Shown piece after piece: positions 285-44,489 of a stretch of 64,000 nt of DNA; within the stretch, counting starts at the first letter, position 1; each line of letters opens with the position of its first letter. The notes below the pieces were generated by a model, which saw only the letters and a list, made by a program, of their open reading frames with translations, was not told where the DNA came from and did no database searches. Made by a program: the position numbers and the translations under genes. Origin of the DNA: Prorocentrum cordatum (taxonomy: Eukaryota > Sar > Dinophyceae > Prorocentrales > Prorocentraceae); the NCBI GenBank assembly GCA_963575745.1, contig CAUYUJ010016297.1, positions 193,501 through 257,500 on the forward strand. The letters run 5' to 3'.

Positions 285-290
<6 letters not shown>
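1..290 (-). pseudogene. Continuation of retrotransposon pol (INT-RT linker) in a shifted frame
   Basis: Below the (CT)19 tract the minus strand stays open to the window edge in a frame shifted by one base from the integrase ORF. It encodes a Pro/Glu/Arg-rich stretch (about 95 codons, including EAIEPGAEEVRPAPPPDPP) like the low-complexity linker between integrase and RT in copia elements. The integrase frame itself stops at 252. The frame change coincides with the dinucleotide tract, so repeat slippage is the likely cause. Partial, cut by the window edge. Confidence 0.5.
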
Positions 291-328
<38 letters not shown>

Positions 329-2546: not shown

Positions 2547-2885
2547 CTCTGGAGATACCCTGGGGGGGGGGGGGGGAACACTTCGGTAAAGGCCGCTCTG
2601 GCCCTCCGATTCGTCGAGAGGTTCTCATCTGGCTCGAGCTGCTGAGAGGAGCCACTAACCCCGACCTCGGCCCCGCCCCGGACGCCGAAAGCCGCCGCGC
2701 ACTCGCCGAGAGCCCTGCGAACGGCGGCCCCACAGGCCACCTCTCGATCGCCGCTGTAGCTGTCGCCGTCAAGCCACTCGGGCCCGACTCTGTCTAGAAA
2801 CCTGGGCCTGGAGGAGGAAGGAGACAGACAGTGATCGGGAGGAAGGCTTGGGGGAGCTCTGGAGGCTTCAGGGGCGCAATTTTTC
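2547..2885 (-). pseudogene. Linker between coiled-coil region and integrase, frameshifted
   Basis: A minus-strand open stretch (part of an ORF at 2543-2947) reads as Ser/Arg-rich protein with RFLDRVGPEWLDGDSYSGD and ends in a poly-Pro run encoded by the G-run at 2562-2577. It leads into the integrase ORF only after a frame change at that homopolymer. No domain is recognised. I infer it belongs to the same polyprotein. Confidence 0.35.
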
Positions 2886-4676: not shown

Positions 4677-5390
4677 AATGGTCTACGCTGATGATGGCGA
4701 TGAGGATGAGACCTCCGAGGACCCAACGCGTTCGGTCCTGTGCCGCAGACCTGGTACTCCTAGGCCATTGCACCCTAGCTTCGTCGAAGGATCCTGAGGC
4801 CCGAACCGATCCTGGGACAGCTGGCTGAGGCCGCGACGCGTTGACCTCAATAAAGCTCCCTGAGTTCTCCGTGGCCCCGAACCCGCGGTAGTCCCCGGAC
4901 GTTCTGACGTAGTGGCCGCCGTAGCTCCGAAGTAACGCTAGTCCCCCGACGAGGTAGATGAGGACACCGATGAGGAGAGGGAGGATCATGCACTGAGACA
5001 CAACCCCATCGTCGGACATAACTGGCGGGCCCCTGTTGTCAATCAGGAAAGAGTCTGGCCTCAAGAACGGGTACTTCTTCAGGGCTGCTGCGGGGACCTT
5101 AGCCTCTTCCTTGAGAGGCTGAATAATCTCCACTAGACGGTGCCCAAACCCGAGCCTGGTCAACTTCACAACCTCGTCTAGCGTGTGGCAATACATATCA
5201 TTTCTAGGAAGGTCTATGACGCATCCCAGGTAATCCAAAAGATTTACGCTCAGGATGTGCGGCACATTCTCTGCCAAAGCGGTCGTCTCAATGATGCGCA
5301 GCGCGCCGCCTAGACAGAGGGGGAAGAGGATGACGTTGATCACCTTCGCCATGCCTCCCACTCCGCGGGCTGCCGTGGGCGGCCTGGCTG
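4640..5390 (-). pseudogene. Retropepsin C-terminal half followed by two hydrophobic segments
   Basis: The minus-strand frame from about 5390 reads GGMAKVINVILFPLCLGG, then VPHILSVNLLDYLGCVIDL, which matches the second half of copia-type aspartic proteases (flap strand followed by the LLPVxxLxxLGxxIDL element). It then runs into two membrane-like segments, MILPLLIGVLIYLVGGLALL and WVLGGLILIAIISVDHF. The N-terminal half of the protease lies in the adjacent frame, so a one-base frameshift near 5390-5400 splits the domain. Confidence 0.55.
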
Positions 5391-15330: not shown

Positions 15331-16008
15331 GTCAGATGGCATCGAGCGTGATGGTCTCTTCGCCACGCCCAAACACCCAACCCGAACGAAGCACGTTGAC
15401 TAGCAAATCAATTCGGGAAGCCTTGCCCCATGGTTCACATCGCGTCGGCCCAGCAGCGATTGTGCCAACGCAAGAATACGAATGCCTCAACACGACACCC
15501 AATCCAGCGGCATTCAACCTGTGAGTTGGGGGTCTTTCGACAATCGGGCCGTCTGGTTGGTTTTGCTGGGGCCCCCGGGGCCCAGCAACACCAGCTAGAG
15601 GAAGATGAGGAGGGGGAGGAGGAGAAGGATGAGGAGCAGGAGTGGAGGGTTGAGGAGGAGGAGGAGGAGGAAGAGGAGGAGGAGGAGGAGGAGGAAGAGG
15701 AGGAGGATGAGGAGGAGGAGGAGGAGGAGGAAGGAGAAAGAACCATATGATCTTGTTCAGTCGAGTTTGAAACATACCAACGAGAAGGAAGATGAGTAGA
15801 AGGATGAGGAGGACGAGGAGGAGGAGGATGGTGTCTCTGGCCACGCAATCGGAAAGGGGGGGCGGATGATAAAGTCTTGGGTGGGTTGTCTACTCCTCCC
15901 TGATCTCCACCTCCTGCGAATACTGCTGTCCCTCCTCATCCTCCCCATCATGTTTCTGTCGTTATTTTGGATCAAGCCATGTTGGATCAAGCTCCCCCCT
16001 GACATTAT
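15331..16008 (-). other. Probable intron with a long CCT/GGA tract
   Basis: Between two candidate exons. 15601-15741 is a GAG/GGA tract on the plus strand (pyrimidine tract on the sense strand) and 15788-15830 a second one. The donor may be the GT in CAGGGG|GTTAGA at about 16016. Confidence 0.35.
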
Positions 16009-20434: not shown

Positions 20435-21124
20435 CTAGCAGTTCGCCAGTGGAATGCTGGCCTGCAGCCCCAAGAATCTCACGTGGAACTCTGGCGCGAC
20501 GATGACGGCACCAGCAACCAGTTCGCGGGGAAGAACAGTGTGAGGCAATATCCACAGACGTCCCAAGCCCGCCCTAGCGCTGACGCCCTCCCCCGGCGAC
20601 GACAATAGCTCGTGGACAGTTTGGCCAAGCATGTGCCCAGCAGGGTCTGGTGTGGCCATTACGCCAGTAAGTGCATGCCAAACGTGCCCAGAGATCTTCT
20701 GCACTCCAAGAATGTTCTGGCCATCGCGGATGAACCCATTCAGCGCATCTCCTGAAAGAGTTAGTGGCGGATTCAACATAAAAACATCACGCAGTTCGAT
20801 AGCAATGTATTTCCGAGCGTTGGCAGAAGCTTTGGCATGAGGCTTGGTCCCACAAACCGAAAACCACGATTGCCAAGCTCCTTGCTGACGTTGTTCTTCC
20901 TCCGTGGTGCCAACTGGCCTCGCTGGGCACAACGCCACGACGGCCTGGACAATGCGATCGCACTTGCGAGAAAAAGTCGGGTCGAAACGGTTAACGCCAT
21001 CGTCAGGCTTCAGCGACACAAGCAAAATGTGGCCGTGCTTACGGCGCCGATCGGGGCGGCGAGGGGGGCCTCCACTGGGAGCGGCCCCGCTGCCGATCTG
21101 CGGTCTGACCGCAGGAGGAAGCAT
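20435..21124 (-). CDS. First exon of the multi-exon gene, starts just after a spliced-leader relic
   Basis: A 229-residue ORF beginning MLPPAVRPQIGSGAAPSGGP at the first ATG, one base after the relic leader. It reads GHILLVSLKPDDGVNRFDPT, FSRKCDRIVQAVVALCPARP, ARKYIAIELRDVFMLNPPLT, and HVWHALTGVMATPDPAGHML. Composition is balanced and non-repetitive. The final residues (after about APEFHV) may be intronic, because good GT donors (GAGTTCC, CACGTGAG) lie there and the next exon is in another frame. Unknown function. Confidence 0.45.
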   Translation of the reverse strand: MLPPAVRPQIGSGAAPSGGPPRRPDRRRKHGHILLVSLKPDDGVNRFDPTFSRKCDRIVQAVVALCPARPVGTTEEEQRQQGAWQSWFSVCGTKPHAKASANARKYIAIELRDVFMLNPPLTLSGDALNGFIRDGQNILGVQKISGHVWHALTGVMATPDPAGHMLGQTVHELLSSPGEGVSARAGLGRLWILPHTVLPRELVAGAVIVAPEFHVRFLGLQASIPLANC

Positions 21125-21125
21125 G

Positions 21126-21147
21126 CTTGCGCCAAAATGGCTGAGGC
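21126..21147 (-). other. Relic dinoflagellate spliced leader
   Basis: On the minus strand, 19 of 22 positions match the DinoSL consensus, counting the degenerate first base, including the core AGCCATTTTGGC. It ends in CAAG directly followed by C and the ATG of the downstream ORF. It is not an SL RNA gene because the GT donor that should follow CAAG is missing. Relic leaders mark genes that passed through trans-spliced mRNA and reverse transcription (Slamovits and Keeling). Confidence 0.7.
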
Positions 21148-23894: not shown

Positions 23895-24060
23895 TGCGGT
23901 CTCCTGGGGCATCCTGAAACCTCCTGGGGCTTCCTGGGGCATCCAGGAGCCTCTTGGGGCCTCCTGGGGCCTCTTGGGGCTTCGAGTGGCCTCCTGAGGC
24001 CTCCTGGAGCCTCGCGCGGCATCCTGGGGCCTCCTGGAGTCTCCTGGGACCTCCTAGGGA
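23895..24060. repeat. 10-bp minisatellite, left block
   Basis: About 16 copies of a 10-base unit close to TCCTGGGGCC on the plus strand, with variants such as TCTTGGGGCC and TCCTGGAGCC. Confidence 0.9.
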
Positions 24061-24130
24061 GGATTCGCGCCCCAGAAGAGGCCCAATATATAGGAACAGA
24101 CGTACATAAAATATTGCGGATCGGAGCCGC
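24061..24130. repeat. Partial 53-bp minisatellite unit left of the LINE
   Basis: Contains GGATTCGCGCCCCAG and, from 24090, ATAGGAACAGACGTACATAA, matching the units at 30561-30757. The unit is broken at 24130 by the LINE 3' end. Confidence 0.8.
24118..24130. repeat. Target-site duplication, left copy (LINE 3' side)
   Basis: GGATCGGAGCCGC. Matches 30532-30544 (GGATTGGAGCCGC) at 12 of 13 positions and abuts the oligo(A) tail of the minus-strand LINE. Confidence 0.8.
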
Positions 24131-24137
24131 TTTTTTT
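24131..24137 (-). other. Oligo(A) tail of the LINE
   Basis: Seven T on the plus strand, A7 in the LINE sense, exactly between the 3' UTR and the target-site duplication. Confidence 0.75.
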
Positions 24138-24175
24138 AATGACAAGGCAGCCCGTGCAGCACGAACCGATCCTGC

Positions 24176-24326
24176 CGCCAAAATGGCGAGCCGCAAAATG
24201 CGGCGAAGAGGCCCGCAAACAGCGGCCTCCGAAAGCAGCGCGCACGCCGCGCTGCATGGGCATGCGCCGTCAGGCGAGGCAGCCGCACGAGCCACCATCC
24301 ACCCCGTGCCGAGCCTGAACAGGCTC
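24176..24326 (-). other. Hairpins in the LINE 3' UTR
   Basis: Three perfect inverted repeats: CGCCAAAATGGCG (24176-24188), GCCGCAAAATGCGGC (24190-24204) and GAGCCTGAACAGGCTC (24311-24326). Some LINEs rely on a 3' stem-loop for recognition by their RT; that role is inferred here. Confidence 0.6.
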
Positions 24327-24350
24327 AGACCACCGAAGGCACTCCCCAAC

Positions 24351-27300
24351 TCAATCACTTAGGCGCTTGCCCGTCTTTGGGTCCAAGCCCGCCCTGATGT
24401 TAGCGACCTCCAGGTTGCGCAGGCGCAGCGCATTGCCTGAGGCTGCGACGCACGTCTTGCCGAGCGTCCTGTGCTTGCCATTGATCTCCTTGGCGTACGC
24501 CTTGCAGCGCGTGCAGATCCTGAAGCCGTTGATGCTGAGGAGCGCATGGCCCACTCCTTCGGCTTCCTGGGTGCCTGATCCCCCAGGCTCGCCCACCTCC
24601 ATGGCGTCCTGGGCGACCGCGGGGCCCGCGTCCGCCCGGCCGCCAGCGGGGCCCGCGCGCAGGGCGCCCTGAGCCTCGCGAGCTGCGCGGGCGGCTGCCA
24701 CCGCACGCATGAGAGCAGCTCCAGGCGAGAGGTCCTGGCCGCTGCTGCTGCTGCTGCTGCCCCCGCCAGCCGCTGACGCCACTGCTGGCTGCTCGCGTGC
24801 GGCGCGGGCGGCGCCCACTGCGTGCATGAGGGCGGCGCCAGGCGAGAGGTCCTGGCCGCTGCAACTGCTGCTGCCTCCGCCTGCCGCTGCTGCCTCAGCT
24901 GGAGGCTCTCGAGCGGCAGCGACGGGGCTCGGCGCCATCTGCTGGGCCTCTGGCTCGGAGGACACCACAATCTCGTCGTCCTGCGTGCTCTGGGCCTCCT
25001 GCTCAAGCCTGTGCGCCGCTGCCAGCGCCACCGCCACCGCGCCTGCAGACGCCAGGGCCGAAGCAGCTGGCTTGCGCCTCGCGCCGCTTGCCACGGGCGC
25101 GAACGGCTTGCCAACGCATGGGTCCTTGAGCAGCCTCTTGATGCTGAGGTCGGTGTAGGCCGTCTTGAGGCAGGCCCTGCAGTGCACACCGTCGCCAGCC
25201 ACCTTGACCACGTCGTGCCTGGTGACGCTGAGAGGCGGCCCTTTGTGAATAGGCTTGCAGTTCGGGTCGATGTCCAGCTTCAGGTCAGCCGCCTCACACC
25301 CAGCGCGCGCGACCCAGTGCGCGACCCCGTCCAGCGTGAGAGACCGCCGTTGCCAGGCTTCACGCAGCTCGAGTGGTGCCCTCACTGCGGCAGCGACTGC
25401 CTTTGCAGCACGGTCGGCCTCCCAGTTGCCACGCCTGTCGCGGGCCGTGATGTCTCCTTTCTGAACCATGGCCTCAGAGGCATGCGCCTTCACCTTCTGA
25501 ATCGTAAGCCCCTGGGGCCCAATGCCGCCGAAGTCGTCAAGCGCCGCCCAGACTCGCCTCCAGATGCACCCCCAGGCAGAAGTCGCCTTGGTGGTGCTGG
25601 CTTCGCCCCTCGCCGTCAAGCCTTTTGTCGCATACGTGGCGTCGAAGGCCGCGGTGATCGGGGGCAGGCTGTGGCGGAGGAGCACCAGACACCCCAAGAG
25701 CTCGGCCCCGTCGATGGACTGCAAAGGCCCAGGCAAGGGAGTGCCTAGCGCCTTAACGGCCGCCTCAGGTCCAGGGTCCCAGTCGTCACCGCCGTCGGGC
25801 AGCTGCACCATTCCGCGAGCCCCCACCGCCAGCGATGTCCCAGCGTCGTAGACCGCTCCGTCGGAGTAGACCGTGGTGTTGGAAAACGGGAAGCCGTCGC
25901 CGCCCTTGAGCCACTGCACGTGCGCGAGGAGGTCGTCTCCAGGCGGGCGCCACTCGTGTAGGGGCTCGGGCAGGACCAGCCTCTCCAGGAGCGTAGTGAT
26001 GGTCACGCTGGTGCTGAAGGGGACGAGCTTGCTGATCTCGGCTGGCAGCGTCAAACTCAACCAGCTGTCCTGGCAGGCGGTGTGCCTGTGCCAGAGAGTG
26101 CCAGGCTGCTCTGGGTGCAGCTGGCAATGCGGCGTGTGCGAGAGCCGCGGAGCACCGTGGTACCTCCTGCTGTTCGGCCACTGCCCGAGGACGAAGACCG
26201 AACGCGCGTATCCTCGCTGGCTGCAGTTGAGAGGCTCCCAGCCTTTGGCCAGGCTGGAGCTTCCAACACCCTTGGCAAACCACCGCCACATCTGCGAGAC
26301 GAAGATGCCACTGCGAACATCAGCGTGCGTGCCGTCTGCCAAGAGCTTCATCTGCCACGCCTTCACGTCCATCGTGATGCACTGCTTGGCATACCACGGG
26401 GAGACCTCCAGTAGGTTGATGATCGTACCATTCGGCCTGACGATGCAATCGAGCGCCCAAGGGTCGTAGCCGATCCTCCTCAGGGGCATGACCACTGCGC
26501 CAAGCGGCCCGCGTACGTCTGCCCAGCAAGTAGTTGACCTCGCTGCCCACTCGAAAGCGGGCATGAGCTGCCCCAGCGGCACCCACTTCTCCCACACAGC
26601 GCGCGCCAGCGTGAAGCAGGGCGCCAGCGTAGCTGCAAAGAGAGGGTCGATGGTGGGAGAGCCCCCCACCAGCAAGCACGCCGTGAGCGACTTCCCATGG
26701 GGATTCGGCTCAATGGCGTGCCGCACAATGCTACGCGCCTGCTGCAGCTCCGTATTGTTGAGCCCCGTGCAGTTGATCCCGTAGAAGAGACTGGGAGCCA
26801 GCCCAGTCGATACGATCTTAGCCGCTGTGGCCCTTCCTCTGCGTAGACCCAGGAGCCGTCGGATCCGAGGAAGGCGGAGTCTGTTCTGCGTGATGCGGTG
26901 CCGCCTGACGACGCTGGACCGCCTGCCGCCCTCAGTGTAGTCGATGCCGAGGTTGCGCACTTCTCTGACACCGATGGCCCCAGTGGTCGAGCCCAGGTGC
27001 CTCTGGAGAGTGGCCCTAAGGCCTCTGCTGCTGGCCAGCACGCGCGACTTCTTGGCGGCAATGGACAGGTGCACCTTCGCCAACCCCTTCGCCACTGCCT
27101 TCGCGGCCATGGTGAGGTCCTTGGCCACTCGCTTCAGGCCACCCCAGCGCTGCAGCACCACGTCGTCGACCACGACCGCAGGTACCACCGTGGGGCAGGC
27201 CGCCTTCATCTCGTCGAGCGGCGTCAGAAGCATGACCTTCATGAACGTGGTGGCAAATGCATCCCCAGCCAACACCGTCTGCGTTACCACAAGCTCGTTA

Positions 27301-29456
27301 GAGCAGCACGACTCCAGGCTGATGACCCTGGGGAGCCGATAGAGGGAGATCTGCAGCTTGGCCAGCCACAGCGGGAAATCGCGTTGCCTGCACGCCTTCT
27401 GCAGGTTGCCGTGCAGGATCTGCTCGAAAGCCTTCCACAGGTCCATCATGACTGACGCCGAGGCCCAGTCCTGGCCTCTGTTCAGCTCGCCCATCATCTG
27501 GACCCATTCTGCCCGCGCCTGCTGCTGCCACACAGCCCTGTCGCAGCTCTTGCCTGAGCTGGCCCACCAGTAGTCTCTGTCGTGCGCCGCCTCCCAGTCC
27601 TTCGCGATGCGCCTGCGGAGCCTGCCGTGTATGCGTACCACCGCCCCCAGTAGCGCAATTGGGCGGAGTCCCCCGTCCGACTTGGGGATGAAGGCCATCT
27701 TGGCGATGAACGCGGGCCAGTCGCACTGCAGCTCGATGGCGACCAGCAGGTCGATGAGCGCCTCGATCCCAGCGTCGTCGAGCACACCCAGCTCGTGCGG
27801 CCGCAGCGCGTCGAACGATGAGCCGCTGGAGTCCCTGAAAGTGGCGATGACTTCCCTGATCTCGCTCACCGTTGGTCGGGCAGGTCGCTCACCAAGATCG
27901 TGTGGCCACTCGAGCGGCTCCAGTGCGAGCCCACTCCCCAGCGGCGTGGGGGGCCCTACTCCCCAGTACCCTGACCACTCCTTCACCAGGGCTTGGACTG
28001 TCTGGGAAAGCGTACGAGGCTCGCTCCCTGGGCCGCCAGTGATCCTGGCTTGCCAGCCCTGCGGAGGTTTGGTCCAGGAGTGGAGGGCCCCCGTTCCTCG
28101 AGCGTGGTTCTCGGCGACCCAGTCCGCGAAGCAGGCCTTCGCCTTGTCCGCGTCCCGCTGCACCAGCTTGTCCGCCATGGTGGCGGCGATGAAGCTCGCT
28201 ACCTGCAGCTGGGGCAGATCCATGGACTGCGCCGCCTGCGCAAAGCCCAGCAAGGTGATGTGGGCCTGCGTCGTCTCCTGCCTGGTGTCGGACTCGAAGT
28301 CAGGCTGCGCACTGCACAAGCGATCGAGCGCCTTCAGCGCCGTGTGCCTCTTCAGCTCGAGGTCAGTCTGAGCGGCACCCTTGAGCGCGATGGCCACGCT
28401 CTTGCACCACGACGTGGTGATGGCCACCCTTGGCAGCCTGGGCGCCGTTGGTTTCAGCACTTTGACCAGTGCCAGCCAGGGGCGCCGCTCTCGTCCAGCG
28501 AACTCGTAGTACGCGTGCTTGAGGCCAATGGCATCCAGCAAGTACCGCTCCGCGCAATGGATGAAGATCTGCCACATGTCGTCCAGCGAGGGCGACCCCG
28601 CCATACGGCCGCGCGCCTCCGCCCACCTCTGGGAGTGGTCCTCGGCGCAGCACGCCTTGGGTAAAGGGTACGGGAACTTCTTCGGCACCTTCATGACCTG
28701 CATGTACCTGTTGACAGAGCTGGCGTTGAACTTGAGCTCAACAGGGAAGTGGGGCGCAATATCCCATCCAAGCTTGATCGCTGCATGTGCTTCGGAGATC
28801 ACGTGAGAGATGACGAAGTAGTCGATCACTCTGCCAGACGGCCTGATGGTGCCGTCCGTTGGTGATGCCACTCTGCCTCCGACGCGCTCAAGGAAGCCTG
28901 AGCACTGCAGCTCGTGAGGCTCCATATTGAAGTCCCCCGCGATCACGAAGGGCTTGCCGATGGCCCGAATCGCCATCGCGATGCCGTCGAGGATGCCGAG
29001 GTTGTAGGCCGAGAGGCCTTCGCCAACCTTCAAGTAGACGTTGATCCATGCCAGGCCCCCAGGAAAGGGACCCGCCACATGCGCGACTGCCGCGCGGCCT
29101 GGCGTGAGCACTGTCGGCTGCCCCGCCTCGAACTCGCCAAGGCCCGAAGACCCCGGAGCCAACTGCAGGAGACCACCGTGCCCTGCGTGTCCCGCAAAGA
29201 CGTCGGTAGCAGGGGTGGCCACCGCATGCCATCCCAGCCTCTGCAGCTTGTCGGTGACCTCGTAGCACCTCTCCTGGGACAGGTGCGTCTCCTGGACTGC
29301 GATGAGGTCGCAGCTCCTGAGACTCTCGTAGCCGAGGATGCTCTCGAACCTGCTATAAGCGTTGGCGTTGATGGAGAGAGCTGTCCACCATCGCCCGCTA
29401 GGGTAGCTACCCTGAGGTCCGCGGCTTCTTGACAGAACGCAGGACCTCCAGGGCAT
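24351..29456 (-). CDS. LINE ORF2 polyprotein: AP endonuclease, reverse transcriptase, RNase H (about 1701 aa)
   Basis: It nicks target DNA and reverse-transcribes the element's RNA. Start chosen at 29456 (MPWRSCVLSRSRG), overlapping the end of ORF1 by 50 bases in another frame; the frame is open further upstream but there it underlies ORF1. Endonuclease, residues 27-245: N30, E56 (AVQETH), D175/N177 (GDFNMEP), D212 (RVIDYF), H236 (APHFPV). RT, about 530-820: D672 (MMDLWKAF), B motif LAGDAFATT, and catalytic VVDD at 762-765 in place of YADD/FADD. RNase H, 1195-1360: D1199, E1252, D1272, D1348, all present. Cys pairs CRAC near 1430 and CTRC near 1660 suggest zinc-binding tails. No stop or frameshift seen. 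Confidence 0.92.
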   Translation of the reverse strand: MPWRSCVLSRSRGPQGSYPSGRWWTALSINANAYSRFESILGYESLRSCDLIAVQETHLSQERCYEVTDKLQRLGWHAVATPATDVFAGHAGHGGLLQLAPGSSGLGEFEAGQPTVLTPGRAAVAHVAGPFPGGLAWINVYLKVGEGLSAYNLGILDGIAMAIRAIGKPFVIAGDFNMEPHELQCSGFLERVGGRVASPTDGTIRPSGRVIDYFVISHVISEAHAAIKLGWDIAPHFPVELKFNASSVNRYMQVMKVPKKFPYPLPKACCAEDHSQRWAEARGRMAGSPSLDDMWQIFIHCAERYLLDAIGLKHAYYEFAGRERRPWLALVKVLKPTAPRLPRVAITTSWCKSVAIALKGAAQTDLELKRHTALKALDRLCSAQPDFESDTRQETTQAHITLLGFAQAAQSMDLPQLQVASFIAATMADKLVQRDADKAKACFADWVAENHARGTGALHSWTKPPQGWQARITGGPGSEPRTLSQTVQALVKEWSGYWGVGPPTPLGSGLALEPLEWPHDLGERPARPTVSEIREVIATFRDSSGSSFDALRPHELGVLDDAGIEALIDLLVAIELQCDWPAFIAKMAFIPKSDGGLRPIALLGAVVRIHGRLRRRIAKDWEAAHDRDYWWASSGKSCDRAVWQQQARAEWVQMMGELNRGQDWASASVMMDLWKAFEQILHGNLQKACRQRDFPLWLAKLQISLYRLPRVISLESCCSNELVVTQTVLAGDAFATTFMKVMLLTPLDEMKAACPTVVPAVVVDDVVLQRWGGLKRVAKDLTMAAKAVAKGLAKVHLSIAAKKSRVLASSRGLRATLQRHLGSTTGAIGVREVRNLGIDYTEGGRRSSVVRRHRITQNRLRLPRIRRLLGLRRGRATAAKIVSTGLAPSLFYGINCTGLNNTELQQARSIVRHAIEPNPHGKSLTACLLVGGSPTIDPLFAATLAPCFTLARAVWEKWVPLGQLMPAFEWAARSTTCWADVRGPLGAVVMPLRRIGYDPWALDCIVRPNGTIINLLEVSPWYAKQCITMDVKAWQMKLLADGTHADVRSGIFVSQMWRWFAKGVGSSSLAKGWEPLNCSQRGYARSVFVLGQWPNSRRYHGAPRLSHTPHCQLHPEQPGTLWHRHTACQDSWLSLTLPAEISKLVPFSTSVTITTLLERLVLPEPLHEWRPPGDDLLAHVQWLKGGDGFPFSNTTVYSDGAVYDAGTSLAVGARGMVQLPDGGDDWDPGPEAAVKALGTPLPGPLQSIDGAELLGCLVLLRHSLPPITAAFDATYATKGLTARGEASTTKATSAWGCIWRRVWAALDDFGGIGPQGLTIQKVKAHASEAMVQKGDITARDRRGNWEADRAAKAVAAAVRAPLELREAWQRRSLTLDGVAHWVARAGCEAADLKLDIDPNCKPIHKGPPLSVTRHDVVKVAGDGVHCRACLKTAYTDLSIKRLLKDPCVGKPFAPVASGARRKPAASALASAGAVAVALAAAHRLEQEAQSTQDDEIVVSSEPEAQQMAPSPVAAAREPPAEAAAAGGGSSSCSGQDLSPGAALMHAVGAARAAREQPAVASAAGGGSSSSSSGQDLSPGAALMRAVAAARAAREAQGALRAGPAGGRADAGPAVAQDAMEVGEPGGSGTQEAEGVGHALLSINGFRICTRCKAYAKEINGKHRTLGKTCVAASGNALRLRNLEVANIRAGLDPKTGKRLSD

Positions 29457-30381
29457 CGCGGATCCTCTTGCGCTGCTCGTCGTCGTCGCCGCAGCCGCCA
29501 AGAAGCCCCCCAGGATCTTCTTCGCCCAAGAAGTCGTCGAAGTCGACGCCGCTCTCGGCAGGCGTCGCCCCCGCTGCTGGCGCCCCTGTGGCCCCTGCTC
29601 CGCCAGGCTGAGCTGCAGCTGGCTCGGGGCCAGGCGCTGCTCCACCTGCAGCAGCGGGCGCCCCTCCCTGCGGGCGAGCTGCCTTCGCCTCCTCAGCGAG
29701 CTCGTTGACCATCTTGGACAGCTGCTCGAGGAGGTCCTGGCCTGAGACTCCGTCGGTGTTGAGCGAGCCGAGCTTCTCCTTGATTGCATCAGGGCTGATG
29801 CCTCCGCCGTAGAGCGCGGCTGCCTCACGCTTGGCCTCCGCGAGCTCTTGCTGCAGCTGCGCGATGGTCTCCTTGGAGGCGTGCACCTGCTCCAGCGCCT
29901 TGCGAGCCACCTCAGTTTCACGCTTAAGCCGATCCTGAGCGTCTGCAAGCTGTCGAGCCAGCCCGTCCACCTTCTGGGGCGCCGACTTCCCCACCAGGCC
30001 GAGAGCATGGGCACGGCGAGCAGCATCCACCTTGCCCCGCGAGGACTGCGTGAAGGTGTGCTTTGTCGCGTCCCACGTCTCCTGCGTGAAGGTGGCCCAG
30101 ACCTTGACCTCCTCCGCACTGAGGGTGGTGCCAGAGGAACTCTTGTCTACGCCAGCACTCTTGCCCTTGAAAAGCTTGCCGTTGTGCCCCCACTGGTTGC
30201 TCGGCGGTGCGTCGGCCCACTTGCCCCGAGACGGAGGCTGACGGAGCTGCCACGGCTGGTGCCAGGGCTGCCCTGCTCCGCGAGGGAAGCGAGGTCGCAT
30301 TCCTCCGCACCCCGCCTTCGAGCACCGAGTGCGGTCGGCGGCGTGGTACTCACCACAAACGCACTGCCACTGGGGTGCCAT
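29407..30381 (-). CDS. LINE ORF1 protein: N-terminal zinc finger, coiled coil (324 aa)
   Basis: Probable RNA-binding/chaperone partner of ORF2 in the retrotransposition particle. Starts MAPQWQCVCGEYHAADRTRC; C7, C9, C20 and C25 form a small zinc-finger-like motif resembling the RanBP2 type. About residues 85-230 are helical and charged, with an extended coiled coil (RLKRETEVARKALEQVHASK, IAQLQQELAEAKREAAALYG). A Pro/Ala/Gly-rich linker follows, then an acidic GVDFDDFLGEEDPG patch and a basic C-terminus (RKRIRDALEVLRSVKKPR). The stop at 29407 lies inside ORF2, so ORF2 may be reached by reinitiation or leaky translation. No canonical RRM is seen. Confidence 0.8.
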   Translation of the reverse strand: MAPQWQCVCGEYHAADRTRCSKAGCGGMRPRFPRGAGQPWHQPWQLRQPPSRGKWADAPPSNQWGHNGKLFKGKSAGVDKSSSGTTLSAEEVKVWATFTQETWDATKHTFTQSSRGKVDAARRAHALGLVGKSAPQKVDGLARQLADAQDRLKRETEVARKALEQVHASKETIAQLQQELAEAKREAAALYGGGISPDAIKEKLGSLNTDGVSGQDLLEQLSKMVNELAEEAKAARPQGGAPAAAGGAAPGPEPAAAQPGGAGATGAPAAGATPAESGVDFDDFLGEEDPGGLLGGCGDDDEQRKRIRDALEVLRSVKKPRTSG

Positions 30382-30508
30382 GGCCGAGACACACTCAGTG
30401 TTATAAGTGCCAAAACGAGGGGAACCGCGCGCGCCGCTGAAGGTCGAGCTCGGGAAACAGAGCTATCCCGTGTTTGCCAGGAGGCTTGCAGCCCCCCAAG
30501 CATTGGGT

Positions 30509-30530
30509 CTTGAGCCAAAATGGCTACGGA
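30509..30530 (-). other. Exact dinoflagellate spliced leader at the LINE 5' end
   Basis: Minus strand reads T, then CCGTAGCCATTTTGGCTC, then AAG: all 22 positions match DinoSL (first base D = T). It is followed by ACCCAATGC, not GT, so it is not an SL RNA gene; it is the leader of a trans-spliced mRNA copied into DNA. One extra base (30531) separates it from the target-site duplication. Confidence 0.95.
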
Positions 30531-30531
30531 G

Positions 30532-30757
30532 GGATTGGAGCCGCAGGAGGAGGGCAATCTATAGGAACACACGAAAAACACCAAGGACTCGTGCCCCAGG
30601 GGAGGCTCAATGTATAGGAACATATGTAAAACATAGAGGATTGCATACACAGGAGAAGGACAACATATAGAAACATACGTATAACATCAAGGATTCGTGC
30701 TCCAGGTGAGGCCCAATCTATAGGAGCATACGTAAAACACATGGGATTGGAGCCACT
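30532..30757. repeat. 53-bp minisatellite (one partial and four units) with right target-site duplication
   Basis: Units start at 30561, 30614, 30667 and 30720, exactly 53 bases apart, each beginning ATAG(G/A)A(A/G)CA. A half unit at 30532-30560 contains the right copy of the 13-bp duplication (30532-30544). Together with the half unit at 24090-24130 it makes one complete but slightly longer unit. Confidence 0.9.
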
Positions 30758-30769
30758 CCAGTTGCCTTC

Positions 30770-31018
30770 TGAGGCCTTCTGCTCCTGGGGCCTCTCGGGG
30801 CCTCCTGTTGCCTTCCGCCTCCTGGCGCGTCCTGTGGCCTCCTGGGGCCTCTTGTGGCTTCCTGAGGCCTCCTGGAGCTTCCTGGGGCCTCCCGGAGCCT
30901 CTTGGGACATCCTGTGGCCTCTTGAGTCTTCCTGTGGCCTCCTGATGCCTCCTGGGACCTCATGTGGCCTCCTGGGGCCTCCTGGAGCCTGCTGGAGCCT
31001 CCTGTGGCATCCTGGGGA
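30770..31018. repeat. 10-bp minisatellite, right block
   Basis: About 24 copies of a unit near TCCTGGGGCC/TCCTGTGGCC, the same family and orientation as 23895-24060. Confidence 0.9.
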
Positions 31019-35115: not shown

Positions 35116-36078
35116 CTACCTGGAGGGGGTTCTTGCGAGGACATTTTGCCATGCAAGCACTGGGAGCACCCCCACATGCCTGGCCACCTTCTCGCAGGCG
35201 CGCGAGATCTTGGCCTGGCTAGGGGCGACAGGCACAGGCACATAGGGGACATCAAGCGACAACTTAAGCCAAAGCGGCAATAAGTTGGCAGCTAGGATAA
35301 AGCAGGCACGGGCTACAGTGACCAGAGCATATACCTCTGGATTGCTGGCAGCACCAGCTGGGTGAAGCTGTAGGCCATGCTTGGCCCCAGCGTCTGCATC
35401 ACGATTGCCGAAACGCAAGAACCTTTCCGAGCAGAAATGCCTTCCTCGTCCACGTCACGGTGAGCCTTGACCTTGACAATGGACTCAATTATACCACCTT
35501 CTACGTTGTTAGCGTTGAAAACCATTCCAGAAAACGATCGCTTGCCTGAGTAGCGCTCAGGCAGCGGCAATAAAGAGTGGCGCACTACTTTGGCACAATC
35601 ACTGTAGAGGACCGAGGGGAAGCACGCAACCTGGGCAACGGCACAGTGAGCCGAACATTGTGCGGCCTGCGGTGTCTGCGGAAAGCGGGCCCAGACTGGT
35701 CCTCGAACCTCCCAGCCACTTCCCGTCATCCGAAGTCGTAGAAATACACCAAGCAGCACGGGACAGCTCACGGACTACGTGGCGCTGGCCGGACCCACCA
35801 AGGAAGAGGTGACCCCACGCCCCCCCATTGGCGGGGGCCACGGGACCCCCGGGACTCTGAAGCTCATCAACGCGCCAAGCATACAGCAAGGCGTCGGCGC
35901 CCTTCACGACAGGACGCGGCAGGACATCAGCGGGATGAGCGAAAGCTCCACGAGTAGAAAGGGCGACCACGTGGCTGTCGGCCTCAGCTGCCCAGACTTG
36001 CGCGGAGTCCGAGACTACCGCGGCAGGGGCCAGCTGAGCTCGCAACTGCTCCACCGCGCCGAAAGAGCACTGCCACAA
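35116..36078 (-). pseudogene. Zinc motif and RNase H remnants of the decayed LINE
   Basis: The frame reads RLWQCSFGAVEQLRAQL (a CPxC...H...C-type motif region just upstream in another frame), then GHLFLGGSGQ, RAAWCI, VLYSDCAKVVRHSLLPL and ESIVKVKAHRDVDEEG, which match RNase H strand, DC and KVKAHRD elements. The expected first Asp (DGS) is GGS here. Several frame changes. Ends near 35116. Confidence 0.5.
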
Positions 36079-36128
36079 GCGGTGGAAGATACTGTCTGGT
36101 GCCCGCCGACAAAGAGGACAGAGCTCGT

Positions 36129-36941
36129 CTACCTGATACCCACACGCAAGAGCTTTGCCCGCAGTCCAGATAACATCACACGAGCAGGCCCTGATCCACC
36201 CTCTCTGTGCGGGGGTGAATGTTTACCGGTAGTGGCAGCTTTGGGGGCATCAAAGCAAACCCTGCGATCCATGCCCCATTTACCCCCCAAGTCCCTCTCG
36301 AGGCTCCTGCGATAGGCATCCGCACAATCGGTCTCCATGAGGCTGGGGGGAATCAGGCCTGAACTGAAAGTATAACCGCGATCGCCCGCAATCGAAACGC
36401 AATTGTCCATGGCCCAGCCAAGGCGCACAAGCGCGAGCCGAAGCGCCGAGAGGGGGCCACGAACAGTGGGCCAAGTAAAACACGGGAGAGCAAAGACAGA
36501 CTGCCAACTGCATCTCAACTCAGGGCGCCGAATAGAGAAAGTACGAACACGAGTCTGGGCCAACCATATCTCTTTTACGCGGACGATAATTGATCGCCGC
36601 ACCGAGCCTCGAAATTTCAAAGGGCCCCCTGGCGTCGTCGAGCGCCGATTGCGCCGGCGCGCCCACTTGCGAGCCCAGCGAAGATGCGCGCGCCAGCCAT
36701 TCGACCCAAACGTGTCGACGAGAGAACTCGACAACAGACCCTGCGGCCGTCGATGAGAACCAGGCGCGGTGCGGTGCATAGCTTTCGGCTTGCAAAGAAC
36801 ACCAAAACTGTGCACCGCGCCAAGCGGGGCGCCATATGCGGCGGGGTCTCTCAGAAAAATCCCTCCAGCACCTCCGCCGCAGGACCGCCGGGGCCCGAAA
36901 GGATTTCCAACGGTGCGAATGCAAGCGCAGATCATCCCCAA
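36129..36941 (-). pseudogene. Post-RT region of the decayed LINE
   Basis: A 270-residue ORF with ALRLALVRLGWAMDN, LIPPSLMETDCADAYRRSLE and KWGMDRRVCF. GP-x-LGW spacing and Trp/Arg-rich helices resemble the stretch between RT and RNase H of dinoflagellate LINEs. Not functional in its own right. Confidence 0.45.
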
Positions 36942-37044
36942 ATCCTCCTAAATGATCTTGCGCGAATCGGCATCTACAAAAAATGCCCCAGGGGTGCTGC
37001 CATGGCACGGTGCATGAATATAGTCTGCGGATCTTTGTTCCACC

Positions 37045-38163
37045 TCAACAGAGGTGCACACGCGGCAGGCCAGCAAGGGTCTTCTGACAGAATGCTGACA
37101 GCAGTGAGAGAACGCCCTTTCGAGAAAGGCCTGACAGTTGCCTTCTCATTGCCAGAAGAACTTGGTCGCTGACTCCAAGAAGGCCCGCGCCGCGCGTCCC
37201 GCCAGGGAGAGGACCGCGCGCGTGCACTCTCAGGGCTCGGCGACCCAAGTTCCCCGATTGCCGTTTGAGACGGCGAGCCTGCCGCCCAGCCAAAGCAACT
37301 CGGGCGTCGAGCCTGGAACAGCGCCCCGAAACACGCATCGCGGCTCCTGCGGCGTCATCCACTCCGAGTTCAACCGCAGCGTCGGTGACCCTGCCCCCTA
37401 GCTGGCCAAGCGCAGAAGCAAGATCACGGCCAAGTGCTTTGCACGAGGCAACCGTGCATATCTTTTCCAAAGAAAGCTTGCAATTCATCATGTTGGGGGC
37501 AGTGGTAGCATGATGAAGCGCAGCAGTGGAGGACACAAGACACAACATAACATGTTTGGAAGTGCCGGTGCATGAAATACTCGCGCCAACAAGGTTGGGA
37601 TAGATTGGGATGGTATCAGAGGAGGGTATAGCATACACGCTGATATGGGCGGTCGCCATACTGCACCCCGCCATCACTCCGTCGCCCAGGAAGCACGGGC
37701 CATCCAAGAGCCCAGCTGTCGACACTAACCTGCCGCATCTATAAGCGAAAATAGTGAGCCGAGTGAGCACCTGAGGAAAACCCACATGCACACAAAGCGC
37801 AACGAGAGTGCCCAAGTGGATAGTTTCATAATGCTGCAGAAAAAAAAAAACTGGCGCTAACTTCTTTCCTGGAGGCGCCAGCTTCGGCACGAACCGACTG
37901 CCCCCAGACCACATCCGAGGCTCCGCGAAACGCGCCAGCGACCCAATACCGACGGGGGCGTCGCTGCTCCCAGGGCAGGACACGAGGCCGTCGGAGACGG
38001 CCCCACACCCTGCACCAGGCGCAGAACACCCCGATCGGTCTGTAGCCGCCAGTAGGTTTTGTGAGCATGGCGAGAAGCACGGCGCTGATCTATCTGGGCA
38101 GCTGGTCGAGCTACTCATCAACTCATAAAGCACGCCAAGAGCAACGAGACCTTCATCGCACAA
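37045..38163 (-). pseudogene. Reverse transcriptase remnant of the decayed LINE
   Basis: Reads GFPQVLTRLTIFAYRCGRLV, then LGDGVMAGCSMATAHISVYA, matching RT motif B (GxxAGCSxAT). The catalytic DD is not seen where expected (after IPIYPNLVGASISC), so the polymerase is dead. Downstream helices (RLDARVALAGRQARRLKRQS) fit the thumb/connection region. Confidence 0.6.
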
Positions 38164-38274
38164 GAACTGGAAATGCCTGCAGTCAATCCATCGTAAGTGA
38201 CGGCCGAGATCTTCCTACCGCATAGACCACCCGTCGGGTGATAAGGAGGTGAGGGGGGGGGGAGGGACCAACGT

Positions 38275-39035
38275 CGCACTCGATTGATCTCACTATCGAA
38301 CTCACTACCGATCTCACAATCGATCTCAATCGCTAGATCTCACAATCGATCTGACTATCGATCTCACAATCAATCTCACAATCGATCCCAGAATCGATCT
38401 CACATTCGGTCTCGCTATGGATCTCACATTCGATATCACAATCGATCTCGCATGCGATCTGACTATCGATCTCACGATCAAACTCACTATCGATCTCATT
38501 GTCGATCTCACATTCGGTCTCACTATCGATCTCACTACCGATATCACAATCGATCTCGCATTCGGCCTCACGATTGATCTCTCTATCGAACTCACTTTCG
38601 ACCTCATTATCAATCTCACTATCGATATCATTATCGATCTCACTATCGATATCACAACCGAACTCACAATCGATCTCACATTCGGTCTCATCATCGATCT
38701 CACGATCGAAACCACTACCGATCTCATTACCGATAGTGATCTCACTACTAACTCAATCGATCGATCTCACAATCGATCTGACTATCGATCTCACAATATA
38801 TTCCACAATCGATCTTACATTCGGTCTCACTATCGATCTCACTATCGATAGCACAATCGATATCACAATCGATATCCCATTCGGTCTCACAATCGATCTG
38901 ACTATCGATCTCATTATCGATCTCACATTCGGTATCACAATCGATCTCACAATCGATCTCACAAGCGATCGGACATTCGATCTCACGTTCGATCTCCCAA
39001 TCGATATCACTACCGATCTCACTATCGATCATCAA
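38275..39035. repeat. 12-bp minisatellite rich in ATCGAT
   Basis: About 63 diverged copies of a 12-base unit close to ATCGATCTCACA, variants ATCGATCTCACT and ATTCGGTCTCAC. Because 12 is a multiple of three, all frames stay open, giving false SRSIT/TIDL repeat ORFs. Confidence 0.95.
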
Positions 39036-39094
39036 AACAAAACATCAACATCGTCATCATCATCACCATCATCATCAATATCATCACCCTAATC

Positions 39095-39270
39095 GGGACA
39101 CCGACGGGGCACCGGCGGGACACTGCGGGCCCCCGGCCGCCCGGAAGGGAGTCATTTGGTCCGGCCGCGCCTCAGCCACACGGGACGCCAGCGGGACACC
39201 GGCGGGACACCGCGGGCCCCCGGCCGCCCGGAAGGGAGTCATTTGGTCCGGCCGCGCCTCAGCCACACGA
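39095..39270. repeat. 87-bp tandem duplication
   Basis: GGAAGGGAGTCATTTGGTCC occurs at 39143 and 39230, with flanking CCGGCCGCGCCTCAGCCACAC in both. Confidence 0.9.
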
Positions 39271-39511
39271 GACTTTCTCTCGCCCGCCCACGCAGCTTCG
39301 CCTCGCCCGCACGGCACGCACGAACACGAAACCGAAATCGATTTCCCGGTAGGGGGGCTCTCCGTTCCACTTCTATCCCACCCCCTCACCTCCGATATTT
39401 CCACTGACCTCCCTGAGCTCGTCTGGCGTAGCACGAGGGAGAGAGGGGGCCAGAGACGCGGGGTCCAGATAGCCGGCTCCTGACCCACAAAACATGGAAA
39501 ACTGATCCCCT

Positions 39512-41294
39512 TCACTGGCCAGCAAGCTGAGGGGGTCGGCCACAAGGACCCAATCCCTGGACAAGGTAGCAGCGGGGACCCATGGAGTGGGCATTTCGAG
39601 CACCCTGGTCGATACCCTTAGTGAGCCACGCACGCCAATCAGCCTGAGCACGCGTCTTGAAGGCAGCATCCGCCTGGGCAGCAGCACCTGAAATAGATTC
39701 CAGGAGAACTTGAGCGGACTCGATCTGCTCCGAAGACATCTGCCCACCTTCCAACGCCGAAACAAAGTCGCGCACACGTTCGAAGGAGCCAGAGAACATG
39801 GAATAATGACGTTTAACGGAGGCAGGCGGGGCACAGAGCAAGGCACCTATCCTCGAAGCTAAAGAGCCTGAACCTTGGTCCGAGCAGCGCAGACTAAGGC
39901 AGGCACGAAACTGAGCTACCAGCTACAGGATGGCACGATGATCAGGACACCTGGGTCGCCCGCCCCTTCCCACAACACCTTTCCATATAAGCTGAGGCCC
40001 CTTGCTTCTGGTGCCCTCGACCGCCAGCTCCGCCCCCGCTATCTGCCCCAGCTCGGCCTCGACTACATCTGCCCAGGCCGCGTAGCCTGGAGACAAATGT
40101 CTGAAAGCAGCGGCTGCATCGCCAGCGGCGACGGCATCTAAACCAGCCTGCGCACGAGTGATGACATGAGTCCAGTCGGGGGGCTCAGGCCCCGGGCCAT
40201 AAACACGCCCCCTCGGAAGGGGGGGGGGCTTTCTGAAACACATAGCCTTCAACGACGCAGGAGACTTGCAGAAGGCTAAATCCACAGGGCGATGAAGGCT
40301 CAAAACCGCGTCGCGAACAACCGAACAGCTACGGAAGGCCTTGCCGAGGCCCGCAGAAATCACGGGTGGAAGGGGCCCCCCATTCCAAATTTGGGCGCGG
40401 CCGGGAGCGCGAATCAGCTGGCCCTGGAGCTCCGACACAAAATTAGTAGAGCGAAGCGTGTCAGGAGACATGTTCCGATCTCCCCCCATGACAAGCGAGG
40501 TGGAAGCGGCCCGCGCGCGCGCCTAACTGACAGAGAAGGCCCACGCTGCGATCTGACGCACCTTTGCTGTCATACGAGTAACCAGAGAAAGCGTCGAAGG
40601 TGAAACCTCCTGGGATATGCACCTTTGCTTGAGAGAGATGGCCCGCGGCGACGCAGCGCCCCATCCGCAGGGGGCAACAAACCGAGAACGGATGCATCGA
40701 GCACCGCAGCGCCTCCCGAAGCGCCCCCCTTCCGTCGAAACAGCTGGGGCCCGCGCGCTCTTCCAACCATTGCGAGCGCGCCGCTGAGAAGCAACATGCA
40801 CTAGAGGCGAACCGATGCCCCTGGACTAGGAGAACCGCAGCAGGCGCGTCAGGAAGCACCTTCTTGAGAGTGCCCCAGCTGTTGCAGTTGAGACTGCGAA
40901 CAACTAACTCGATCGAGCTCAGCCCGTCGGACACCGCGGGACCGCACGTGGGGCCCAGGGTCACCGGCGAGGAAAAGGGGGCAGTGGAAAACCTAGGGCC
41001 AGGCACCACAACCACAGGAGAGGCGAGCCCAGGAGAAGCCAGGACAAGATAGGCCTCTTCAGAGGGCAAACGAAACTGGCGGGCTTCGCGGTGGAAGCCT
41101 GCAGCGAGCCAAGACCTGGGCAACCTTCCGACAAGACTCGTTGCGACCTCCACAAAGTGCGACGCACCGCATTCATTCCTAAGGCCCCCTCGGCCTTGGT
41201 AGCGGACATCACGAGCACGGAGGGAGCGACGGAAGAAGGGCCGACAGGCCATGAGAAATGTGTGAAACGCGCGATTAGCGCCGCCCCCCTGCAT
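39512..41294 (-). pseudogene. AP endonuclease and linker remnants of the decayed LINE
   Basis: Frame 40461-41294 has VVRSLNCNSWGTLKKVLPDA and AVLLVQGHRFASSACCF, the first strand and QE(T/H) element of an APE-type endonuclease; the catalytic Glu is Gly here (QGH). Frame 39923-40489 begins MGGDRNMSPDTLRS (GDxNMxP element). Frame 39512-39841 is helical linker. At least two frameshifts. Confidence 0.6.
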
Positions 41295-41371
41295 CTAAGC
41301 GACGGCCTAAGCAGGGGGGAGCTCACCTGCTGAATCTGCCGTGGCTGCGAGCGCAGCATCGGCACGAGCCT

Positions 41372-42596
41372 TCAGTTCGGCAGTGGAAAGCTCACGCACA
41401 GGCTCTGACGGCCGGCTCTGGGCCTCAGGTGCCTTCGCTGGCGAAACAGCTCCACCTGCCGAAACTGCTCCACCGCTAGGCGCCGCCGATGCTGCTGATG
41501 CAGCTGCTGCAGCACCGTCGCCAGCTCCAGTTGCGCCGTCGGCCTCTCCTGCAGGTGCTGCTTGGTGGGCCTCTGCAAGAACGTCACCCTGGCGACGTAT
41601 CTTGGCCGCGAGGCGCCGCCGCAGATGTTTTTTTCATGATCTTCACGTACTTGCTTGGCTTGGTCGCTGGCCTGCTTGAACAGCGCGGCGCAAAGGTGCT
41701 TGACTCCGCCGGCCAGCTGCTTGGACCGACGGTCGAGCTCCTCACGATCTTGCGGCGAGACTTCGTACTCCGCGTCGTCGACATCGAGGAAGCCCACGTC
41801 AATAGTGGGCACGTCGTCGACCTTCCCGTCCAAGATGTCCTTGACGGAGAGCACTGCACACCCAGAAGAGTGTTCACGAGCAAGCTTACCAATGAGAGAT
41901 TTATGAATGTCTTCGACCGTCTGAAGCTCCTTTTCGCAAGGAGACAACCTCTTCACGTTGACGACGGCGAGCGTTTTCCTGTTCCTCGTACTCAATGAGG
42001 GCAGCTTGAAGCCGCTTATCCGTCTGCCTGAGCTTGGCGTGCGCAGAGTTGACCTGGAACTGCACGGACTGCGTGGGGGAAGGAAAACGCGGATCCTGTG
42101 CCACGGCTCGATACCGAGCACCTCCTTCGGGATCCACCCCTATCTGGAGGAGCACAGCAAGTTGATCAATTTCATCAGGAGGCAACCCGCCCAAAGCAAG
42201 AGAAGACTTGTCCTTGGCGGGAGTGCAACCCTTAGTGGGACGATATGTCCATTCACATGTCGGTGACCATGGCGACTTACAGTGCTTGTACCATGTCCAC
42301 GTCGCCAAGTTCTTTTTACACGCGCACTGGCAGCAAACCCATCGCCCCTGGACCAACTGTTGCTGGCAACCGCCTCCTTTGCCAGAACCCTTTCCTGCTC
42401 CACCTGCAGGTTGAAGTCTAGGTTGAAGAGGGGGCACGGATTTGAGGCGACGGGAGCGATTCCAGCGGTTGACAAGCCCGTCAGAAGGAGCACCACCGCG
42501 GCCAGCCATGGCGGCACCTGAAGACGGGGACTGGTTCCGTGCCTGGGGGGAATGGCTCGCTATCGCACGGCCTTTCCGAACAGTTCGCGATGGCAA
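41372..42596 (-). pseudogene. ORF1 remnants of the decayed LINE
   Basis: The upstream frame (41901-42596) has a Cys-rich patch, RWVCCQCACKKNLATWTW and CKSPWSPTC, similar in placement to the ORF1 finger of the intact LINE, followed by a coiled coil (LRQTDKRLQAALIEYEEQEN). The downstream frame (41372-42121) continues KELQTVEDIHKSLIGKLARE and an acidic DVGFLDVDDAEYEVSPQDRE segment. One frameshift near 41960-42000. Confidence 0.55.
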
Positions 42597-42623
42597 AGGC
42601 CTGGGTCTCGGAAAGGCTATTTA

Positions 42624-43362: not shown

Positions 43363-44400
43363 CCAGAACCAGAACCAGAACAAATCGGGTCAGCGAGCAC
43401 AGAGCCGAAGCCAATACAGCTCAAACCTTCCGAGAGGACGAGGGGGAAAACACAGACAGAGGCTATAGATGCCTCTCGGCAGCCTGGCCGAAAGTGTAGT
43501 AGGAACCAGGGCCACTCAGAGGAGAAAAGAGGTCCTCCACCCACCCGCCCTCTCCATCCCCCCATCCCCCAGGGCGGAGATCTGCTCTACAGTGGGGCAG
43601 ATACTGAGCCTGGTCCAGCTCGCTTTGCACCCTTGCGGGAAGGAGGCTAAACCTAAACAGCGAAGAACCCCAGGAAGCATAGAGTAAGGAAGGATATATC
43701 AGTAAGAGGACCCAGCTTCGCAGTTTAGGAACACGAAGGCGCCCGACGCCCCACCGTCGACGACAGACGATCGCCGACGACCACCAGCGACCGCCCGACC
43801 AGTGTCGACAGCGGGACGCCGACCCATCAGCGACGACCGACGACGACCGACGAGGCCGCCGCTGAGGGCCGGCGCGCCGCAGACGCGGGCCGCCGCGGGC
43901 CGCCGAACCTGAGATCAGACGGCGCGAAAAATCGGGCACGAAGCCCTGGACCACACCTTTCTGCGCCACTGCTCGAGCCGGGTCGATCTGTGGCGAGATT
44001 CCCGGCACAATACACGTTTTGACGCCAGGACCTCGGGCGGAGGGCGACCGCCGAAGGGACGCCGCCCACGGCACGCGGAACGCGCGCAGGGGGGCCTCGG
44101 CGGGTTCCCTGCGGGCCGCGCGGCCGGGCGCGCAGGGCGCCGCCGCCTCGTGCGGGGGGGGGAGCGCTCTCCGCGGGCTCTCCCCCCTCGTTCTTCTGGC
44201 GCGGGCGCGCGCAGGCGCTGCGCTCTGGCTTCCACGGCCCTTGTGCCCAACTCGCTGCCGACCGACACGCCCCGTTGCTGGCCGGCCGCTTGCTGGACTC
44301 AGCTCGCCGCAGATCAAGAAGTATGCGCTGTGCTGCGCACTTGGCCTCAAGGAGAACGTCGGGGGGGACCGGCTCAGGGAAGGGGGGGCCATCGAGCAGG
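43363..44400. other. Non-coding interval with long minus ORF of doubtful meaning
   Basis: A 309-codon minus ORF (43463-44392) contains GVKTCIVPGISPQID but is otherwise Arg/Pro/Ser-rich and looks compositional. No domain found. Confidence 0.35.
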
Positions 44401-44449
44401 AATCGGCGATACATCACCGATAGATCGGCCATATGAGCCCACGATAGCA
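44401..44449. repeat. Dispersed palindromic module, copy 1
   Basis: TCGGCGATACATCACCGATA, then GATCGGC and GCCCACGATAGC. Closely matches 59961-60008. Confidence 0.7.
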
Positions 44450-44489
44450 AACTGCGCTGGGCCGCTCCGCGAGCCCCTTCCTTCTGGTG

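Follow-up and report, generated by a model that had tools for sequence, protein, structure and literature searches.

A LINE-type retrotransposon beginning with a complete dinoflagellate spliced leader in Prorocentrum cordatum

The locus

The window analysed here is a stretch of 64,000 nucleotides from the dinoflagellate Prorocentrum cordatum with a GC content of 59.0%; a value of 59.7% is given for the species (passages of PMC10666404). The element on its minus strand is best read as a dinoflagellate non-LTR retrotransposon (LINE) with two ORFs and an APE endonuclease, and it looks young. Its components and flanks are as follows.

24131..30530, minus strand: LINE element, 6,400 bp, from the start of the dinoflagellate spliced leader (DinoSL) to the end of the oligo(A)
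30509..30530, minus strand: complete DinoSL TCCGTAGCCATTTTGGCTCAAG, 22/22 match; ACCCAA comes next, without a GU/GC donor
30531, minus strand: extra base (sense C) between the leader and the right repeat, possibly untemplated
29407..30381, minus strand: ORF1, 324 aa, ATG 127 nt past the leader; relatives P0011 and P0012
24351..29456, minus strand: ORF2, about 1,701 aa; APE-type endonuclease, RT (VVDD), RNase H, C-terminal Cys motif by eye
24176..24203, minus strand: tandem hairpins CCGCATTTTGCGG (24191-24203) and CGCCATTTTGGCG (24176-24188) in the 3' UTR
24131..24137, minus strand: oligo(A) of 7 A, the sense 3' end
24118..24130, unstranded: left copy of the candidate 13-bp target-site duplication, GGATCGGAGCCGC, 12/13 against the right copy
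30532..30544, unstranded: right copy of the candidate 13-bp target-site duplication, GGATTGGAGCCGC, 12/13 against the left copy
30532..30780, unstranded: 53-bp tandem array of the right flank, which served as insertion target; on the left side, 24061-24130 holds one unit and part of a second

The leader occupies the extreme 5' end of the element (minus strand, window positions 30530-30509) and matches the DinoSL at 22 of 22 positions with D=T; the element sequence continues from it as ACCCAATGC and the sense 3' end reads GTCATTAAAAAAA. Two matches to the 21-nt DinoSL core with at most three mismatches were found in the window (none in 100 shuffles), namely the exact one at 30509-30529 and another at 21126-21146 with 3 mismatches. 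The dinucleotide following the leader is AC, as opposed to the GU or GC of SL-RNA genes, a feature described for the post-leader sequence of SL genes in Fugacium (passages of PMC6616646); because AC rather than such a donor comes next, we read the leader as a spliced exon. On the other side of the leader the 53-bp tandem array is one base away, and neither a second leader nor an SL-gene repeat is found there. An exact 22-base DinoSL at the 5' end and an oligo(A) at the 3' end had both been claimed in an earlier note on this DNA, and both are present, the latter as 7 A; the coordinates 24118..30544 given there do delimit a LINE, but they take in both flanking repeats, the element proper spanning 24131-30530.

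Coding capacity of the element

ORF1 has a Cys-rich N-terminal stretch and a coiled-coil-like middle, as judged by eye, and no Pfam model scored above the cut-off on it. A protein search (about 8,000 candidates scored from a larger pool) yielded at least two relatives, P0011 with 72% identity over 100% and P0012 with 84% over 58%, which derive from contigs of 1,399 and 1,340 bp, respectively; the predicted ORF1 start is the same in P0011 and in this LINE. ORF2 extends from an ATG at 29456, which we take as the start for being the first in-frame ATG near the ORF1 stop, to a stop at 24351, and overlaps ORF1 by 50 nt. Across the whole element the ORF2 frame contains 3 stops and the remaining five frames 27, 29, 30, 42 and 88.

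The endonuclease model PF03372 scored above the cut-off on ORF2 (E 8.9e-6), and the RVT_1 and RNase_H Pfam models gave no match on this ORF2 protein itself. The assignment of RT and RNase H is made because of the relatives and the alignment: RVT_1 is matched at E<=0.1 in five of the six members of alignment A2, and RNase_H in P0006. In P0001 numbering, the residues N22, E48, D167, N169, D204 and H228 are present in the endonuclease (EN), D664 of motif A and the paired D756 and D757, aligned with the relatives, in the RT, and D1191, E1244, D1264 and D1340 in RNase H. All of these positions, whose catalytic role we take from knowledge of the families, are invariant in the three-protein alignment A1. 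The earlier assertion that both frames are open and carry the EN, RT and RNase H catalytic residues is therefore borne out, with 324 and 1,701 aa and the expected acids in place. The RT motif reads VVDD in place of YxDD, and the usual aromatic residue is missing. P0006 is 37% identical to ORF2 over 1,378 columns and both proteins read AVVVDD, while P0003 has LYVDD and P0004 VYIDD; since VVDD is common to P0006, it looks like a subfamily trait and not damage in this copy.

At least two relatives of ORF2 were found by protein search and at least six more by profile (about 8,000 candidates scored each, out of a larger pool), three of the six profile-found relatives aligning over less than one third of the query. 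With public relatives of both ORF1 and ORF2, this is, as far as sequence comparison tells, a real family. An AlphaFold2 model of 1,096 residues of ORF2 was poor (mean pLDDT 51, pTM 0.31); the top three Foldseek matches of this poor model were human LINE-1 ORF2p (E 4.9e-9 to 2.3e-8, with low TM-scores of 0.14-0.19), and most matches ranking below these were APE/exonuclease-III-type nucleases; no solved structure was matched by sequence at E<=0.01. The relatives' DNA was sought in viral_contigs, with 0 pattern matches for ORF2, 78 stretches for alignment A1 of which 0 were confirmed and 5 stretches for ORF1 of which 0 were confirmed, and in plasmids, with no match. No long terminal repeats appeared among the 60 matches (>80 nt) listed from the self-comparison. 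The C-terminal part of ORF2 contains an internal tandem duplication of about 129 nt at 81% (window 24675-24917) with Ser/Ala-rich runs.

The 3' untranslated region and the insertion site

The two 3' UTR hairpins are neighbours, each with a 5-bp stem and a TTT loop, and the second has the 11-mer GCCATTTTGGC in common with the DinoSL. When the last 220 nt were shuffled, this 11-mer turned up in 5 of 5000 sequences, and at least two such hairpins in 84 of 2000; compared with shuffles, the last 110 nt fold with a z of -2.48 and, less clearly, the last 70 nt with a z of -1.47. The hairpins could be a signal recognised by the reverse transcriptase, or they could be due to chance. Rfam searches of 24000-30760 at E<=1 returned only a sub-threshold flpD and no ribozyme family, and at gathering scores no match was obtained in the whole window.

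Both flanks of the element belong to the same 53-bp tandem array, the units of which begin GGATT. The two 13-bp repeats differ by a single mismatch (TCGG versus TTGG, that is CG versus TG), as would be expected from deamination of a methylated C. A resident array unit at 30744 also agrees with the right copy at 12/13, which makes it as similar to that copy as the left copy is. The score of the repeat pair was equalled or beaten by 24 of 20000 random pairs of window positions, and by 665 of 19407 pairs inside the right-hand array. A target-site duplication is likely, and the pre-insertion target would then have been a single 13-bp site, GGATYGGAGCCGC. The proposal that a 13-bp duplication abuts both ends of the element can be retained in that a repeat pair flanks it, but not to the letter: the copies agree at 12/13, one base (30531) precedes the leader, and the array units are themselves alike.

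Leader relics and other elements in the window

In Alexandrium cDNAs the cut in the relic leaders follows nucleotide 7 and falls at an AG (passages of PMC3229502), while in Fugacium transcript relics begin CCA and genomic relics are longer, genes with tandem SLs being offered as another source (parts of PMC6616646); in a 2025 study, TG is put forward as a non-canonical acceptor (parts of PMC12014239). A degenerate tandem relic lies in the window at 15955-15991 on the plus strand, where a truncated 13/15 relic comes immediately after a 17/22 leader, both reading GGATCAAG (22+15 nt). The pair has 5 mismatches in 30, compared with 8 for the next best pair in the window and 9 for the best of 60 Markov-simulated windows, and the plus strand after it has no long open frame in the translated stretch. 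It fits re-splicing at the internal AG, and a tandem-SL gene as donor would be compatible with it too. The degenerate leader at 21126-21146 (minus strand, 3/21 mismatches) lies directly 5' of a 229-aa ORF (20435-21124, minus strand) with no Pfam match at E<=0.01, and a leader-like CGTAG-A-CCATTTTGGCTC with one inserted base occurs within a long ORF at 4667-4681 on the minus strand.

A second, broken LINE-like element is present at 35400-42600 on the minus strand, where tblastn recovers pieces of EN, RT and RNase H: the matches of P0001 and P0003-P0008 fall within 40498-35439, and an ORF1-like region reaches to about 42.6 kb by eye. Near its 5' side, the end of which is not precisely defined, a scan with the 21-mer allowing 3 mismatches found no leader. 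Between about 38270 and 39030 this second element is interrupted by a satellite built of ATCGATCTCAC-like units. Elsewhere in the window, a 764-aa ORF (252-2546, minus strand) reads like the integrase region of an LTR retrotransposon, with no Pfam match at E<=0.01, and the ORF that follows (2794-5361) may be part of it too; the stretch 44001-46000 has a strong GC skew (+0.43), long mechanical ORFs and internal repeats.

Beyond the window, a scan for the exact leader returned one contig in viral_contigs (L001) and two in genome_contigs (L002 and L003). L001, an IMG/VR contig whose genes are AT-rich and, in our reading by eye, giant-virus-like, carries two exact 21-nt DinoSL copies at 1936-2913 (minus strand), one of them just before a GC-richer 254-aa ORF, and perhaps reflects viral capture of a trans-spliced host mRNA. 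L002 (32-52, plus strand) and L003 (4334-4354, minus strand) each contain an exact DinoSL in MAGs labelled Dehalococcoidia and are possibly chimeric or mis-binned; by eye, no EN/RT protein was seen among their ORFs of at least 120 aa (3 and 1, respectively).

Origin of the insertion

A complete leader, with AC next to it, at the extreme 5' end of an element encoding EN and RT argues that the integrated template was a trans-spliced RNA. On the whole reading, which for this one copy we consider very probable, a trans-spliced LINE mRNA was integrated by target-primed reverse transcription. The 22-nt DinoSL exon would have been joined to the pre-mRNA of a source copy at an acceptor immediately preceding ACCCAATG, and the LINE RNA, processed as a host mRNA, would have gained a 3' A tail. 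It would then have been the template for target-primed reverse transcription into the 53-bp tandem array, synthesis reaching the 5' end and turning the leader into DNA, with the 13-bp duplication arising on integration. The leader, the non-donor junction, the open ORFs and the catalytic residues can be read directly from the letters; the duplication and the A tail are supported, short of proof, whereas a cap, action in cis of the element's own proteins and a recent insertion are presumed, as is trans-splicing as the normal route to the full-length RNA of the family. Of the capped, trans-spliced and polyadenylated template put forward in the earlier note, trans-splicing is upheld by the complete leader and its AC junction, polyadenylation is indicated by the 7 A, and the cap would follow by implication. 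In favour of this reading we count the exact 22-mer at the end, the AC junction, the openness of the frames, the homologues, the fold match to LINE-1 ORF2p, the repeat pair, the GC content close to that of P. cordatum and the SL relics elsewhere in the window. Against it count the restriction to a single copy, the imperfect duplication within an array, the short tail, the extra 5' base, the non-canonical RT motif, the lack of an RVT_1 match, and the second LINE-like relic, on whose 5' side no leader with 3 or fewer mismatches was found.

Two alternatives would detach the leader from the RNA template altogether. An exact SL at one edge is what would be seen if the leader belonged to an SL-RNA gene or to the target site, the LINE lying beside or within an SL gene; we regard this as extremely improbable, given that there is no GU/GC donor, that the 53-bp array is one base off and that the far end is without an SL. 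That the assembly has joined an SL cDNA to genomic DNA is suggested by the single copy, and is nonetheless very improbable, given that a single tandem array makes up both flanks and that these carry a matching repeat. The remaining readings accept a trans-spliced template and differ over the life cycle of the family. There is an appreciable possibility, somewhat short of an even chance, that the family propagates from an unspliced, promoter-bearing RNA and that this LINE mRNA was recycled as a host mRNA would be, by a LINE or copia RT acting in trans; such a scheme would bear on the life cycle but leave a trans-spliced mRNA as the template. Ordinary mRNA recycling is widespread and the reverse transcriptase responsible is unsettled (passages of PMC6050394 and PMC3229502), other SL relics lie in the window, and the 5' side of the second LINE-like relic lacks a leader, all of which agree with such a by-product. 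Both ORFs are intact, however, and the marks of integration are LINE-like, and a complete leader together with both ORFs is presumably what LINE proteins acting in cis would copy.

Continued propagation through the leader can be conceived in several forms. A 15-nt tandem relic behind the LINE leader was not found, the best 15-mer of the 5' UTR agreeing at 9/15; this degenerate candidate, TCGTTTTGGCACTTA, was discarded, with 1036 of 2000 shuffles being equally good. Tandem 15-nt relics are expected only in multiply recycled copies. As no relic stands behind the leader, the parent of this LINE was not re-spliced at the internal AG: either it had an acceptor of its own before ACCCAATG, or a fresh leader replaced the parental one precisely at the terminal AG. 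Renewed trans-splicing at that terminal AG, as advanced in the earlier note, is unsupported as written, published relics being mostly read as cut at the internal AG, after nucleotide 7, and re-use of the terminal AG is possible. Extended to a recursive scheme, in which a read-through transcript receives a new leader at the old terminal AG, so that every generation restores the same 5' end, it agrees with the single clean leader free of a 15-nt relic and with the CTCAAG leader end directly preceding the element body. We think this scheme unlikely: cDNA relics end at the internal AG (passages of PMC3229502 and PMC6616646), and the tandem relic of this window itself has the 22+15 form. The integrated leader might instead act as a small promoter, its TTT(G) motif initiating transcription of the inserted copy, an idea put forward for retrogenes by Song et al. 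(parts of PMC6050394), and the leader is intact here; a counterargument from relic ages is given in the same source, and we hold this to be quite unlikely. Taken jointly, the propositions that the family is routinely SL trans-spliced, that each generation carries a fresh leader, that promoter-less copies are revived by read-through and trans-splicing, and that the same machinery is behind SL-mRNA recycling make up a scenario that is conceivable but doubtful.

Comparison with known systems

The element resembles LINE-1-type APE non-LTR elements in its two ORFs, APE-like EN, RT, fold match to ORF2p, candidate duplication and short A tail, and differs from them in its host spliced leader, its RNase H domain, its VVDD motif and in that no promoter was identified. 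CRE/SLACS elements of kinetoplastids insert in SL genes; a CRE/SLACS-type insertion in an SL-RNA gene was considered here and rejected, the target being the 53-bp array. Like the L1Tc and ingi elements of trypanosomatids, this is a LINE in a host with SL trans-spliced mRNAs. Those elements have their own Pr77 promoter and unspliced transcripts, and the L1Tc RNA is released by a ribozyme (passages of PMC8190864), which is HDV-like (parts of PMC4035085), whereas the present element has a spliced leader and no Rfam ribozyme match.

DinoSL-tagged retrogenes, in which a complete or relic DinoSL heads an integrated cDNA, are well known (parts of PMC6050394, PMC12014239, PMC7245778, PMC8045281 and PMC11453091). 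The likeness extends to the leader; in contrast to those retrogenes, the cargo here is a LINE encoding EN and RT, with a single full leader and a candidate duplication and A tail. Endogenous viral elements of dinoRNAV are likewise non-host RNA with a DinoSL integrated in dinoflagellate genomes, but there the cargo is viral and fragmented and no autonomous element is involved; for the DinoSL-bearing RNA virus and its genomic relics, LINE-mediated retroposition has been proposed (passages of PMC10235124). Among titles and the openings of abstracts we found no report of an SL-headed LINE, which is not proof of absence.

Implications for dinoflagellate retroposition

The reverse transcriptase behind the recycling of dinoflagellate mRNAs is stated to be unknown in passages of PMC6050394, where Ty1/copia LTR elements are thought likelier, and copia transcripts are described in Oxyrrhis (parts of PMC3942190); the LINEs of Symbiodiniaceae and Polarella have been read as remnants of an old expansion (passages of PMC8045281). 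An intact SL-headed LINE with integration marks of the LINE type indicates that copying of a trans-spliced RNA can reach the 5' end when the insertion is LINE-like, and it provides a defined candidate enzyme. That a specific LINE enzyme, the trans-spliced template and the site of integration all come together in a single piece of DNA would be surprising to a specialist. If the arrangement were family-wide, a LINE could keep its 5' end through the leader of its host.
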